Source of the DNA: Halobiforma nitratireducens JCM 10879 | GTDB taxonomy: Archaea > Halobacteriota > Halobacteria > Halobacteriales > Natrialbaceae | Direction of reading: 5' to 3' | DNA length: 61,863 nucleotides | NCBI RefSeq assembly: GCF_000337895.1 | Contig: NZ_AOMA01000063.1 | Coordinates: 177,752 to 239,614 of the forward strand | In this document: piece after piece, positions 35,439-54,622 of the stretch | Position numbering within the stretch: the first letter of the stretch is position 1 | How the letters are laid out: every line of letters begins with the position of its first letter | Translations under genes and position numbers: made by a program | Notes under the pieces: generated by a model | Databases searched by the model: none | What the model saw: only the letters and a program-made list of their open reading frames with translations | What the model was told of the DNA's origin: nothing

Positions 35439-36689
35439 TTAGCTCGTCAAGTCGGCCCGTTCGACCGCGAGTTCGACCTCGGGCGCGAGCCGGTTGCAGA
35501 CCGCAGGCCCATCGCGTTCTCGGACGACGAGCCCGTCCTCCTCGAGCGACGAGAGGTGGTAAGACACCGTACTCGGGTCCAGATTCAGCACGTCAGCGAG
35601 CTCGCTCGTCTGCATCCTCTCACGTGTTGCAAGCGTCTCGAGGAGCCGTCTCGTCGACTCCTCGGACAGAGCCGTCCGTAGCTCGATGTCGATGTCCGCG
35701 GTCGTATCGATGCAGTAGTACCGGCGCTTCCCGCGAATCTTTTCGGAAGTCACCAGGCGCTCTTCCTCGAGAATGCGGAGGTGATGACGGATCGTCGACA
35801 GCGACACCTCGGTCACGGACTCGAGTTCCGACAGGTGGACGCCTGGTGCGTTCGTGATCGCCTGGTACAGCTCTCGTCTCGTGTCGTGTTCGAGCGGATC
35901 GGAGTCGTCGAACCGGCTGCACCGAAACAGAGCGAGCGGCAGTTCCCAGGGCCGGTCTCCCTCGAGATCGATCCCCTGGGCGTAGACCGTTCCGGTCCGC
36001 GCGGCCGACCGGCGAAGGACTGGGTTCTGTACGGTCAACACTGCGGCGTTTCCGGACGCCGACGCACCGCCGATCGCGGTGAGGATGGTTGCAGCGGTAA
36101 GCCCGATCGTTTCCCCGACCGTGCTGGCGTCGGCGTCGGTCGACCCTGACTGGTCGTCCCCGCTACTGGCCGCGACGCTTCCGTTCTCCTGCCCACTGGG
36201 CCGATCCTCGTCGTTCGAAGACGGCTGGTCGCTCGAGGTACTCGAGGGTGACGATCCGTTCGGGGTGCTTTCCTCGTCTTCGTCGGCTTCGCCATCTTCG
36301 TCGTCCTCGTCGTCAGGGTCGTCTGGATCGTCTGGATCGTCAGGGTCGTCTGGGTCGTCTGGGTCGTCCTCGTCGTCCGGGTCGTCTGGGTCGTCTGGGT
36401 CGTCCTCGTCGTCAGGGTCGTCCTCGTCGTCAGGGTCGTCCTCGTCGTCAGGGTCGTCCTCGTCGTCAGGGTCGTCCTCGTCGTCAGGGTCGTCTGGGTC
36501 GTCCTCGTCGTCCTCACTTTGTGCCTCGAGGACTGAAGCGAACTCAGCCGGCGACTCCGCGAGGCCCCCATCAGCGGTGCTGCCCGCAGAGCCAAAATCC
36601 ACGGCAGCTACCCCACCGAAGGCTGTACTCAGGAATACGATCGAGACGAACGCACAAACGAGCAGACGCCGGCCAGCACGTTCGCTCAT
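35439..36689 (-). CDS. Secreted-to-cytosol regulator: signal peptide, Asp-rich repeat, TM, two winged helices
   Basis: 416 aa from the ATG at 36689. Residues 1-29 are a Sec-type signal or anchor ending GGVAA. Residues 58-140 are a repeat of DDPDDE units with about 60 Asp or Glu. A Ser/Asn/Gln-rich spacer follows, then a weak TM helix (about 192-222, TIGLTAATILTAIGG). The C-terminal part has two ArsR-like winged helices (about 264-330, with STIRHHLRIL, and 335-400, with STVSYHLSSL). If the topology is right, an external poly-acid arm is joined to an internal DNA-binding pair, a one-component membrane regulator. Only the first region is unusual; HTH-containing membrane proteins are known in haloarchaea. 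Confidence 0.85.
   Translation of the reverse strand: MSERAGRRLLVCAFVSIVFLSTAFGGVAAVDFGSAGSTADGGLAESPAEFASVLEAQSEDDEDDPDDPDDEDDPDDEDDPDDEDDPDDEDDPDDEDDPDDPDDPDDEDDPDDPDDPDDPDDPDDPDDEDDEDGEADEDEESTPNGSSPSSTSSDQPSSNDEDRPSGQENGSVAASSGDDQSGSTDADASTVGETIGLTAATILTAIGGASASGNAAVLTVQNPVLRRSAARTGTVYAQGIDLEGDRPWELPLALFRCSRFDDSDPLEHDTRRELYQAITNAPGVHLSELESVTEVSLSTIRHHLRILEEERLVTSEKIRGKRRYYCIDTTADIDIELRTALSEESTRRLLETLATRERMQTSELADVLNLDPSTVSYHLSSLEEDGLVVRERDGPAVCNRLAPEVELAVERADLTS
36297..36513. repeat. Tandem repeat encoding the Asp-rich arm
   Basis: About 215 bases made of near-identical 9- and 15-base units (GTCGTCTGG, CTCGTCGTCAGGGTC on the plus strand). Copy number changes here would keep the reading frame. 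Confidence 0.9.
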
Positions 36690-36861
36690 AGTAGGTGGGT
36701 GAGATGAGGTCGTCACTCGATTGCTGCCGTTCCGGACGAAGACGTACAGTGACTTTGACCAGTCACTTCCTTAAATCTACTCGAGCACGTACCGGATGGG
36801 ACACGCTCTCGAGACGGCCTGTGTAGTCACCGTTTTACCACTCGAGGCGCTACCGGGCCGT

Positions 36862-38619
36862 ATGACCGACCCCGAGACGTTGTCCGTGACGATCGTCGAC
36901 GGCTACGTCGACGAGCCCGCACACTTCGGGGTGCCGCCGTACATCTCGACGTATCCGCGCTACGCGGCGGGCGCGCTCGTCGACGCGGGTGTTCCCCGCG
37001 AGCGGATCACGTACCACACGATCGACGGCCTCCGCGACGAGCCCGACCGCTGGCGCGATGTCGACGAGGCGGACCTGCTGCTCTACCTGGGCGGGATGAC
37101 CGTCCCCGGGAAGTACGTCGGGGGGACGCCGGCCGAACCGGACGAGGTGCGCAAACTCGCCTGGACTGCAAGCGGCACGAGCTTGATGGGGGGGCCCGTC
37201 AAGTTCGGCGTCGGCGACGAGAACGCCGGTGCGACCGAAACGGAGCGCCAGGACCTCGATTTCGATTTCGTCGCCAAGGGCGACGTCGAGGCCGCCGTCT
37301 ACGACCTCGTCGAGAGCGGCCTCGAGGGCTTTAACAACCGGATGCGCGACGTCGACGAGGTCTCGCGGTGGGCCCAGGACGGTGCCTTCATCGTCGAGCA
37401 ACATCCCAACCACCCCGACTACCTGATCGCCGAACTCGAGACCTCACGGGGCTGTGCGTATCGGTGTTCGTTCTGTACGGAGCCGCTGTACGGCAACCCC
37501 GACTTCCGGCCTGCACCCACCGTGGTCGGCGAGGTCGACGCACTCTCCGATTACGGCGTCAGGCACTTCCGGCTCGGTCGCCAGGCCGACATCCTCGCTT
37601 ACGGCGGCGACGGCGAAGCGCCCAACCCGGACGCTCTCCGGCAGCTTTACAGCGGTATTCGCGAGGTCGCGCCCGACCTCGAGACGCTGCACCTGGACAA
37701 TATGAACCCCATCACGATCGTCGAGTGGCCCGAGAAGTCACGGGAGGGGATTCGGATCATCGCCGAGCACAACACCCCCGGCGACACCGCCGCGTTCGGC
37801 CTCGAGTCCGCGGACCCGATCGTCCAGGAGGAGAACAACTTGAACGTCACCGCCGAGGAGTGTTTCGAGGCCGTCCGGATCGTCAACGAAGAGGCGGGGT
37901 GGCGACCTGGCGAATCGCCCACAGATGGCCCCAGCGTCGGCGACGACACCCCCGGGCGACTCCCGAAGCTGCTTCCGGGGATCAACCTCCTGCACGGGCT
38001 CAAAGGCGAACGGGAGGAGACCTACGAGCGCAACATGGCGTTCCTCCAGCGGGTCTACGACGAGGGGTACATGCTCCGGCGAGTCAACATCCGGCAGGTG
38101 ATGTCCTTCGACGGCACCGACATGTCCGACACGGGAGCCGAAATCGCCAGAGAACACAAGAAGCTGTTCAAACGTTACAAGCAACGGGTCCGCGAGGAGA
38201 TCGACAACCCGATGTTAGCGCGCGTCGCGCCGCCCGGCACCGTGTTGCCGGACGTCCATCTCGAGTACCACCAGGACGGGAAGACGTTCGGGCGACAACT
38301 CGGTACGTACCCGCTTCTCGTCGGGATTCCCGGCGAGCGTGAACTCGGCCGGACGATCGACGTCGCGATCGTCGATCACGGCTACCGCTCCGTGACCGGC
38401 GTCCCGTACCCGCTCGATCTCAACGGCGCGTCGATGGACGAACTCACGGCGATTCCGGGCGTCGGGGACCGAACTGCGGGCGACATCGTCGTCAATCGGC
38501 CGCACGAGTCCGTCGCCGACGCGAGCCCGGGTCTGGGTCTCGAGACGGAAACGGAGACGGGGATCGACCTCTCACGGTTCGTCACGGCCGAAACCGGGCC
38601 GGAGACGGGAGCCGATTGA
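36862..38619 (+). CDS. Radical SAM protein with C-terminal helix-hairpin-helix
   Basis: 585 aa from the ATG at 36862. It has an N-terminal B12-binding-like domain (about 5-150, GGMTVPGKYVGG), a radical SAM barrel with Cys198-x3-Cys202-x2-Cys205 (RGCAYRCSFCTEP), and a C-terminal region with LDLNGASMDELTAIPGVGDRTAGDIV, a helix-hairpin-helix that may bind nucleic acid. This is the MJ1487-type archaeal family, substrate unknown, possibly an RNA or protein modifier. The last 30 residues are low-complexity Glu/Thr. A frame extension to 36796 is not supported. Confidence 0.9.
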   Translation: MTDPETLSVTIVDGYVDEPAHFGVPPYISTYPRYAAGALVDAGVPRERITYHTIDGLRDEPDRWRDVDEADLLLYLGGMTVPGKYVGGTPAEPDEVRKLAWTASGTSLMGGPVKFGVGDENAGATETERQDLDFDFVAKGDVEAAVYDLVESGLEGFNNRMRDVDEVSRWAQDGAFIVEQHPNHPDYLIAELETSRGCAYRCSFCTEPLYGNPDFRPAPTVVGEVDALSDYGVRHFRLGRQADILAYGGDGEAPNPDALRQLYSGIREVAPDLETLHLDNMNPITIVEWPEKSREGIRIIAEHNTPGDTAAFGLESADPIVQEENNLNVTAEECFEAVRIVNEEAGWRPGESPTDGPSVGDDTPGRLPKLLPGINLLHGLKGEREETYERNMAFLQRVYDEGYMLRRVNIRQVMSFDGTDMSDTGAEIAREHKKLFKRYKQRVREEIDNPMLARVAPPGTVLPDVHLEYHQDGKTFGRQLGTYPLLVGIPGERELGRTIDVAIVDHGYRSVTGVPYPLDLNGASMDELTAIPGVGDRTAGDIVVNRPHESVADASPGLGLETETETGIDLSRFVTAETGPETGAD

Positions 38620-52252: not shown

Positions 52253-54622
52253 ATGAGCAACGATACGAACGTTGACGACCCTCCTGAAGACGCCTCCGAG
52301 TCCGTCACCGATTCAGCGGCGGACGACCGGGAGCAAACGCAGGATCACGGCCCGGACGAGAGCCGTGATCGAGATCGAGAGCAGGGTCAGTCCCGATCCA
52401 ACCCGGACCCGGACCCGGACCCGGACCCGGACCCGGACCCGGACCCCGACCCGGACCCGGACCCGGACCCGGACCCCGACCCCGACTCTCGCTCTCGCTC
52501 ACCGGAGTCCGACGAGGACGACGAGCGTCAGGGAGTTCGGTCGCCGATCGAGGAGGACGGTGACCGGCCCGACGGGAATCCACCCGACGTGAACGAGTCG
52601 GGTCCGCGGTCGGCACTCGAGTCGGAGTCACCAGCCGACGAGAGCGACGACGGTAGCGACGACATCGAGACCGTCGAGGACCTCGGGAGCGAGGTCGATG
52701 TCGACCCAGGCGTCGAAATCGACGAGGAAAACGCCGAGGACGATCTACTCGGTGGTCTCCAGATCGATTCGACGGACGACATCGAGGTGCCCGATCGCCT
52801 CGTCGACCAGGTCATCGGTCAGGACGAAGCCCGAGACATCATCATCAAGGCGGCAAAGCAGCGTCGCCACGTCATGATGATCGGCTCGCCGGGGACCGGG
52901 AAGTCGATGCTGGCGAAGGCGATGAGTCAGCTCCTTCCCCAGGAGGATCTGCAGGACGTCTTGGTCTATCATAACCCCGACGACGGCAACGCACCGAAGG
53001 TGCGGACCGTCCCTGCGGGGAAGGGCGAACAGATCATTGACGCCCACAAGGAGGAAGCCCGCAAGCGCAACCAGATGCGATCGATCCTGATGTGGATCAT
53101 CATCGCGATCGTCATCGGGTACGCGCTGCTGACTGCTAACATCCTGCTTGGTATCCTCGCGGCGGGTATCATCTGGCTGATCTTCCGGTACACGTCTCGC
53201 GGAACGGACGCGATGGTGCCGAACATGATCGTCGACAACGGCGATCAGCGCCAGGCCCCCTTCGAGGACGCGACCGGTGCTCACGCCGGTGCGCTGCTGG
53301 GCGACGTTCGCCACGACCCGTTCCAGTCCGGCGGCATGGAGACGCCCAGCCACGACCGCGTCGAGCCGGGCTCGATCCACAAGTCCAACAAGGGTGTGCT
53401 GTTCGTCGACGAGATCAACACGCTCGACATCCGCACCCAGCAGAAGCTGATGACGGCGATCCAGGAGGGCGAGTTCGCCATCACCGGACAGAGCGAACGC
53501 TCCTCGGGCGCGATGGTCCAGACAGAGCCCGTCCCCTGTGACTTCGTGATGATCGCGGCAGGGAACCTCGACGCGATGGAGAACATGCACCCTGCGCTTC
53601 GCAACCGCGTCAAGGGCTACGGGTACGAGGTCTACATGGACGACACCATCGAGGACACCCCCGAAATGCGCCGGAAGTACGCCCGGTTCGTCGCCCAGGA
53701 GGTCGAACGCGACGGCCGCCTGCCTCACTTCACCGACGACGCCGTCGAGGAACTCATCCTCGAGGCCAAGCGCCGCTCGGGTCGGAAGAACCACCTCACG
53801 CTGCACTTCCGTAGCCTCGGTGGGCTGGTCCGCGTCGCTGGCGACATCGCCCGCGCCGAGGACCGCGAGCACACCACTCGCGACGACGTGTTGCAGGCCA
53901 AACAGCGCTCCCGGTCGATCGAGCAACAGCTCGCCGACGACTACATCGAACGGCGCAAGGACTACGAGCTGCAGGTCACCGAAGAGGCCGTCGAAGGCCG
54001 CGTCAACGGCCTCGCGGTCATGGGTGAAGACTCGGGGATCATGCTGCCGGTCATGGCCGAAATCGCGCCCGCGCAGGGTGGCGGCCAGGTGATCGCCACC
54101 GGGAAGCTCCAGGAGATGGCCGAGGAATCGGTCCAGAACGTCTCGGCGATCATCAAGAAGTTCTCCGACGTCGACCTCTCGGAGAAAGACATCCACATCC
54201 AGTTCGTCCAGGCCGGCCAGCAGGGCGTCGACGGCGACTCCGCCTCGATCACGGTGGCGACGGCCGTTATCTCCGCCCTGGAGGACATCCCGATCGACCA
54301 GTCGGTCGCGATGACCGGCTCGCTGTCGGTTCGGGGCGACGTGCTTCCGGTCGGCGGCGTCACCCACAAGATCGAGGCCGCCGCAAAGGCCGGCTGTGAC
54401 ACGGTCATCATTCCGAAAGCGAACGAACAGGACGTGATGATCGAAGACGAGTACGAGGAGATGGTCGAGATCATCCCCTGTTCGAACATCAGCGAAGTGT
54501 TGGATGTCGCCCTCGAGGGTGAACCGAAGAAAGACTCGCTGGTCGACCGGCTCAAGCAGATCACCGGGACGGCGCTGGACCGCCAGCAGGCCGTCAGCGG
54601 GTCGAACCCGAGCCCACAGTAA
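52253..54622 (+). CDS. lonB: Membrane-bound archaeal Lon protease with long PD-repeat tail
   Basis: 789 aa. ATP-dependent protease of archaea, anchored with its body in the cytosol; in Haloferax it is essential and controls carotenoid and lipid enzymes. Walker A GSPGTGKS and Walker B VLFVDEIN surround an insert with two TM helices (about 280-320). The catalytic Ser is in [17 protein letters not shown] and Lys in [14 protein letters not shown]. The first 150 residues are an acidic tail much longer than usual, with 14 Pro-Asp units (51-78). It is divergent from nadM and followed 3 bases later by a CPBP protease. Confidence 0.97.
52403..52486 (+). repeat. CCGGAC hexanucleotide array coding (Pro-Asp)14
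   Basis: Fourteen in-frame copies of CCGGAC/CCCGAC in lonB. Copy-number changes keep the frame, so tail length could vary between strains. Confidence 0.97.

Follow-up and report, generated by a model that had tools for sequence, protein, structure and literature searches.

The window analysed here, a stretch of 61,863 nucleotides from Halobiforma nitratireducens JCM 10879, carries on its minus strand an open reading frame at 35439-36689 (ATG at 36689, stop codon at 35439-35441) that encodes a protein of 416 residues, hereafter the stalked regulator. A first-pass annotation had placed the frame at exactly these coordinates and had described its product as a signal peptide, a DDPDDE repeat, a weak transmembrane (TM) segment and two winged helices joined in one protein; our analysis confirmed this layout. 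All features of the gene given below lie on the minus strand. Residues 1-29 (36603..36689), RRLLVCAFVSIVFLSTAFGGVAA, form a signal-peptide-like segment of the Sec type, with an AxA-like end (GGVAA followed by V) and a best 19-residue Kyte-Doolittle mean of 2.32. A short N-terminal linker (residues 30-58, 36516..36602), delimited by the translation and by alignment with the protein's own clade (group B, defined below), leads into an acidic arm of DDP and DDE triplets (residues 59-132, 36294..36515) in which proline occupies strictly each third residue. The annotation was right about the presence of the repeat, while its length of about 80 residues is corrected here to 74. The arm is followed by a Ser/Asn/Asp-rich linker with two N-glycosylation sequons, both NGS (residues 133-194, 36108..36293), a weak Ala/Gly-rich TM segment recognized by hydropathy (approximately residues 195-220, 36030..36107) and a basic juxtamembrane segment beginning LRRSAAR (residues 221-257, 35919..36029), which is assigned to the cytoplasmic side by positive-inside asymmetry. 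Winged helix 1 (residues 268-327, 35709..35888) is of the HVO_0163 N-terminal HTH type (PF24266) and is preceded by the motif DDSDPL, whose alignment columns are invariant. Winged helix 2 (residues 341-393, 35511..35669) is of the HTH_20/ArsR type (PF12840, PF01022).

At the DNA level the arm is a true tandem array (36300-36515; 36-bp period, 5.8 copies, 90% matches, score 293), and the open reading frames found across it in other frames and on the antisense strand arise from the repeat and are not genes. The annotation's remark that such a coding repeat is free to change length in frame is borne out by the arms of the family, which span 127 to 423 residues. A second array lies elsewhere in the window at 52401-52486 and consists of about 14 copies of ACCCGG with 96% matches.

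Upstream of the gene we located a TATA-like promoter box, TAGATTTAAGGA (36768..36779, minus strand), which is common to the window, the orthologue of Halobiforma haloterrestris (L054) and a decayed copy (L105). An inverted repeat next to it, AGTGACT-TTGACC-AGTCACT (36748-36767), was considered as a site of autoregulation and rejected, as it is missing from the promoter of the H. haloterrestris orthologue, the nearest one. No regulon, ligand or binding site was found for the window protein. The divergent neighbour (36862..38619, plus strand) encodes a radical-SAM protein by Pfam, and in the group B members with flanks examined the stalked regulator gene sits between this radical-SAM gene and Hsp20. 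Both neighbours were rejected as functional partners, because the radical-SAM gene is near-universal (39 of 41 genomes) and the arrangement mostly occurs without the HTH gene: the radical-SAM gene directly adjoins Hsp20 in most genomes examined, including G080. In G082, a genome of the same genus, the decayed copy (L105:7144-7408) has suffered an internal deletion of about 1 kb within conserved synteny. Only the signal peptide and the terminal portion of winged helix 2 remain, joined out of frame, and this natural loss indicates that the gene is dispensable.

Profile searches identified both domains of the DNA-binding half. Winged helix 1 matched PF24266 with an E-value of 4.6e-14 (52.7 bits against a cut-off of 31, match over residues 269-327), and winged helix 2 matched HTH_20 (PF12840) at 6.7e-19 and HTH_5/ArsR (PF01022) at 1.1e-17. 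Both winged helices are modelled by AlphaFold with pLDDT above 90, and their best fold matches in the PDB are the ArsR-type winged helices of CzrA, CadC and SmtB. The second domain also matched NF033788, the model for ArsR/SmtB metalloregulators (86.7 bits against a cut-off of 55, best stretch 338-404). Inspection of the sequence revealed no cysteine in the recognition region of winged helix 2, TSELADVLNLDPSTVSYHL, and no histidine in its last helix, APEVELAVERADL; with these metal-ligand residues absent, the resemblance is one of fold only, and winged helix 2 is therefore not classed as a metal sensor. A Pfam profile search of the window protein returned no sensor domain, and HAMP was absent among its 25 best Pfam matches.

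Using the TM segment plus the winged-helix half as the search query, we found relatives across the Natrialbaceae and in other families of the Halobacteriales. Among 78 non-redundant members, 70 combine a signal peptide, a long low-complexity arm, a second hydrophobic segment and tandem winged helices, and 62 of these 70 rows have A-x-A near the end of the N-terminal hydrophobic segment. The annotation had held that homologues lacking the signal peptide would speak against its proposal, and the opposite was seen in the 70 rows that retain it. The eight exceptions comprise four rows clipped at a locus or contig edge, one fused protein and three divergent short forms. L062 and L060 are among the edge-clipped rows, and their full-length versions do carry the N-terminal segment. 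The fused protein (L022/L065, Halostagnicola sp. A56) joins the HTH half in frame to an FAD-binding-like N-terminus and represents either a fusion or an assembly error. The divergent forms (L090, L098 and L101) have one N-terminal hydrophobic segment, without a long arm or a clear second TM segment. Shorter tandem winged-helix relatives without signal peptide, arm or TM segment were also found. Two branches of the family recur below. Group B, the clade of the window protein, comprises the window, H. haloterrestris and eight other genomes, Natrinema included, and forms one branch with an SH-aLRT of 97. Group A, a sister group (L059-L076, L118, L181-L199), consists of members that lie convergent to gvpO beside gas-vesicle clusters.

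The orientation of the protein was evaluated through two independent sequence signals. In haloarchaea, N-glycosylation takes place at the external face of the membrane (see PMC9263693). The arms of the family contain 485 N-x-S/T sequons against 183 expected from 200 shuffles of each arm (sd 10, highest shuffle 210), while the reversed motif occurs 182 times and just 20 sequons in all fall in the cytoplasmic halves of these proteins. Since sequons within one repetitive arm are non-independent events and repeats inflate the counts per arm, the safer figure is the row count, in which forward sequons outnumber reversed ones in 60 rows and the reverse is true in 4. The second signal is charge. The 20 residues before the TM segment are 17% D+E and 3% K+R, whereas the 40 residues after it are 4.5% D+E and 9% K+R, and this asymmetry is present in 66 of 70 rows (Wilcoxon p 7e-13). 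The flip matches the prediction of the positive-inside rule for an arm outside and winged helices inside. The agreement of the two signals makes an external arm with cytoplasmic winged helices a well supported prediction, and the annotation's picture of an acidic arm outside, an anchor in the membrane and two winged helices in the cytoplasm likewise draws support from the sequons and the charge flip.

The placement of the winged helices inside depends on the second hydrophobic segment, which is weak in the window protein (hydropathy mean 1.38 against a family mean of 1.56). AlphaFold gives this segment a pLDDT below 50 and no confident helix; in the predicted structure of a group A homologue, a 19-residue helix of moderate confidence occupies the same position. 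The weakness of the segment, together with the common occurrence of acidic low-complexity regions in halophile proteins, could be read as a cytosolic protein whose N-terminal segment does not serve export and whose disordered acidic tail is merely typical of haloarchaea. Such a protein would not be expected to conserve a signal peptide, to confine its sequon excess to the arm or to flip its charge at the TM segment, and we regard this reading as extremely improbable.

Results from the comparison of arms elaborated on the question of what the external part might do. The annotation had proposed that the poly-Asp arm senses salt, surface charge or, by binding them, divalent cations, and relays this to the winged helices. 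The window arm is indeed extremely acidic (net charge -0.48 per residue) and predicted to be external, and other DDPDD arms of group B carry about -0.4 per residue. However, arms within group B vary between DDPDD, DPSDTSDS and KPGKPD, and in two orthologues of the same clade and locus (L013/L015) the KPGKPD arms carry net charges of -0.02 and +0.03 per residue. This series demonstrates that charge is not conserved, and the near-neutral orthologues contradict the proposal. Arms in the wider family are mostly Thr/Glu/Asn-rich, which further argues against it, and the molar-salt habitat of haloarchaea would probably impose strong screening on any such sensor. A charge-sensing arm is accordingly very unlikely, and it ranks last among the options in which the protein receives a signal.

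The arms do share periodicity. Autocorrelation in group B arms occurs only at multiples of three, and the proline period is exactly 3.00 in most of them, with a mean power of 24 where a lack of periodicity would give about 1; this suggests that the triplet arm may be an extended, polyproline-like rod. Arms of other Natrialbaceae, here termed group A-like, show peaks at lags 4, 7, 11, 18 and 22 and a hydrophobic period of 3.65, values consistent with a putative 11/3 helical (hendecad-like) repeat, and the families outside the Natrialbaceae display a weaker version of the 11-residue periodicity. One group A-like arm matches the Pfam apolipoprotein model below the cut-off, while the modest helix propensity of the Thr-rich hendecads counts against a helical rod. 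Several arms outside group B (for example L033, L031 and L017) combine the 11-residue periodicity with sequons, like helical glycoprotein stalks. Judged from the primary structures, helical-type and proline-type rods appear interchangeable at the same position of the protein, and the conserved property of the arm is predicted to be its extended periodic build, not its charge. The layout is kept while the sequence and the charge of the rod change, and the rod is therefore probably a spacer or antenna rather than an acid-based ion sensor. Arms that have been exchanged naturally at a single locus, with acidic, neutral Lys/Pro and Ser-rich versions, offer a ready test of chemistry against reach.

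Taken with the predicted topology, these observations make it probable that the window protein is a membrane-tethered one-component transcription regulator with an external spacer or antenna rod. By sequence, its DNA-binding domain is covalently joined to a membrane-spanning input. The N-terminal half would be exported by the signal peptide, a long and extended rod of periodic sequence, probably bearing N-glycans, would stand outside the membrane, the weak Ala/Gly-rich helix would cross the membrane, and the two cytoplasmic winged helices would bind DNA. As a spacer or antenna the arm may extend into or through the zone of the S-layer, where its engagement, pulling or clipping could alter the contact of the tethered winged helices with DNA; the state of the rod might be relayed across the membrane through clustering, tension or cleavage. 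The family would then be a widespread, unnamed group of archaeal regulators that apparently couples an external glycosylated rod straight to DNA-binding domains.

Two further readings bear on how such a protein might act. In the first, regulated intramembrane proteolysis, the weak TM segment would be cut by a protease of the rhomboid or S2P type, releasing a soluble regulator made up of the winged helices. The TM segment is weak and rich in small residues (Ala/Gly/Ser), with a conserved AITASGA core in group A, and would suit such a cut; small residues also fit helix dimerisation. Haloarchaea possess both rhomboids and S2P proteases, for which few substrates are established (PMC9263693, PMC11985538). 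Overall, release by proteolysis seems rather unlikely, though the likeliest of the alternatives. The protein might instead receive no signal and be a structural anchor between DNA and the membrane or S-layer, as its lack of a sensor domain and the freedom of its arm sequence to vary would allow. Against this, tandem winged helices generally read specific DNA sequences and the distribution of the family is patchy (in the same genus, G080 has no gene at this site and G082 has one with an internal deletion), so that a purely structural role is highly improbable.

The annotation knew of no described system with the layout of the tethered regulator, which proved too strong a statement, as DUF7345-TM-DUF7343 proteins and ArnR are comparable. 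Three DUF7345-TM-DUF7343 proteins (L123, L124 and L125) are encoded in the same genome, and they resemble the window protein in having a signal peptide, an external part, a single TM segment and a cytoplasmic winged helix. Their ectodomain is the conserved DUF7345 (PF24036), followed by one DUF7343 winged helix (PF24034) after a long cytoplasmic linker, whereas the window protein carries a repeat arm instead of DUF7345 and a pair of winged helices of the HVO_0163 and ArsR types; its gene was not returned by genome-wide searches with PF24036 and PF24034 (E<=0.001). This uncharacterised set is the nearest layout, with a conserved ectodomain where the stalked family has its rod. Literature searches turned up no paper on DUF7345, on DUF7343 or on the Pfam HTH name, and a single mention of HVO_0163 itself, in an acetylome paper. 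Soluble tandem-HTH regulators of the HVO_0163 type (PF24266) share the type of winged helix 1, but their frames of about 170-250 aa are too short for signal peptide, arm and TM segment. CsmR of Haloferax volcanii was considered as a relative and set aside, since nothing in the portion of the source available links it to the stalked family.

Among bacterial membrane transcription factors, ToxR and CadC likewise place a winged helix inside, cross the membrane once and expose a part outside; their winged helix is N-terminal and their outer domain C-terminal, the reverse of the order in the window protein, and they have no signal peptide. Tetrabrachion, an S-layer component, forms glycoprotein rods of 11-residue periodicity outside archaeal cells. 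Its hendecad stalks resemble what is suggested for group A arms, although tetrabrachion is not joined to a DNA-binding protein and the window arm is itself a proline triplet rod. ArnR and ArnR1 of Sulfolobus, of which ArnR is a characterised archaeal membrane-bound regulator, are also one-component HTH proteins; they have an N-terminal HTH, an internal HAMP/sensor region, two C-terminal TM segments and no external stalk described (PMC6396743), so that the domain order of the window protein is reversed relative to them. What sets the stalked family apart from known membrane one-component regulators is the predicted lack of a folded external domain.

Analysis of gene neighbourhoods placed 44 of 71 Natrialbaceae family copies no more than 8 kb from gvpO, in every case on the other strand. 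The Pfam-confirmed neighbours of group A are gvpO, gvpA and gvpF/L, usually with MutS on the other side, and the adjacent clusters are without gvpDE and leave no room between gvpA and gvpF. The window protein stands outside this association, its gvpO being 38 kb away. Co-occurrence with gvpO was rejected as functional evidence: gvpO is present in 111 of 125 genomes with or without the HTH gene, and HTH copies persist in genomes where gvpO was not found, so that the adjacency may be passive synteny. A link of group A to gas-vesicle control is thus a lead only. The fuller proposal, in which the family is a stalked surface-sensing class with an exchangeable rod and group A supplies the controller that the many gvpDE-less gas-vesicle clusters of haloarchaea are missing, appears unlikely. 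PMC4390858 notes that the conditions under which such clusters are expressed are not known; a link, if true, would make the question of how they are switched on testable. Upstream of gvpA, the motif GCTGCNNNTGCAAGC (core TGCAAGC) is present, singly or as a pair, in 30 of 35 Natrialbaceae regions (L160-L199). It was rejected as the gas-vesicle operator of the stalked regulator, because it is about equally frequent in genomes with the HTH gene (12 of 15) and without it (18 of 20) and is no evidence for that protein; GCTGCNNNTGCAAGC is instead a candidate operator at which a different regulator would control gas vesicles.
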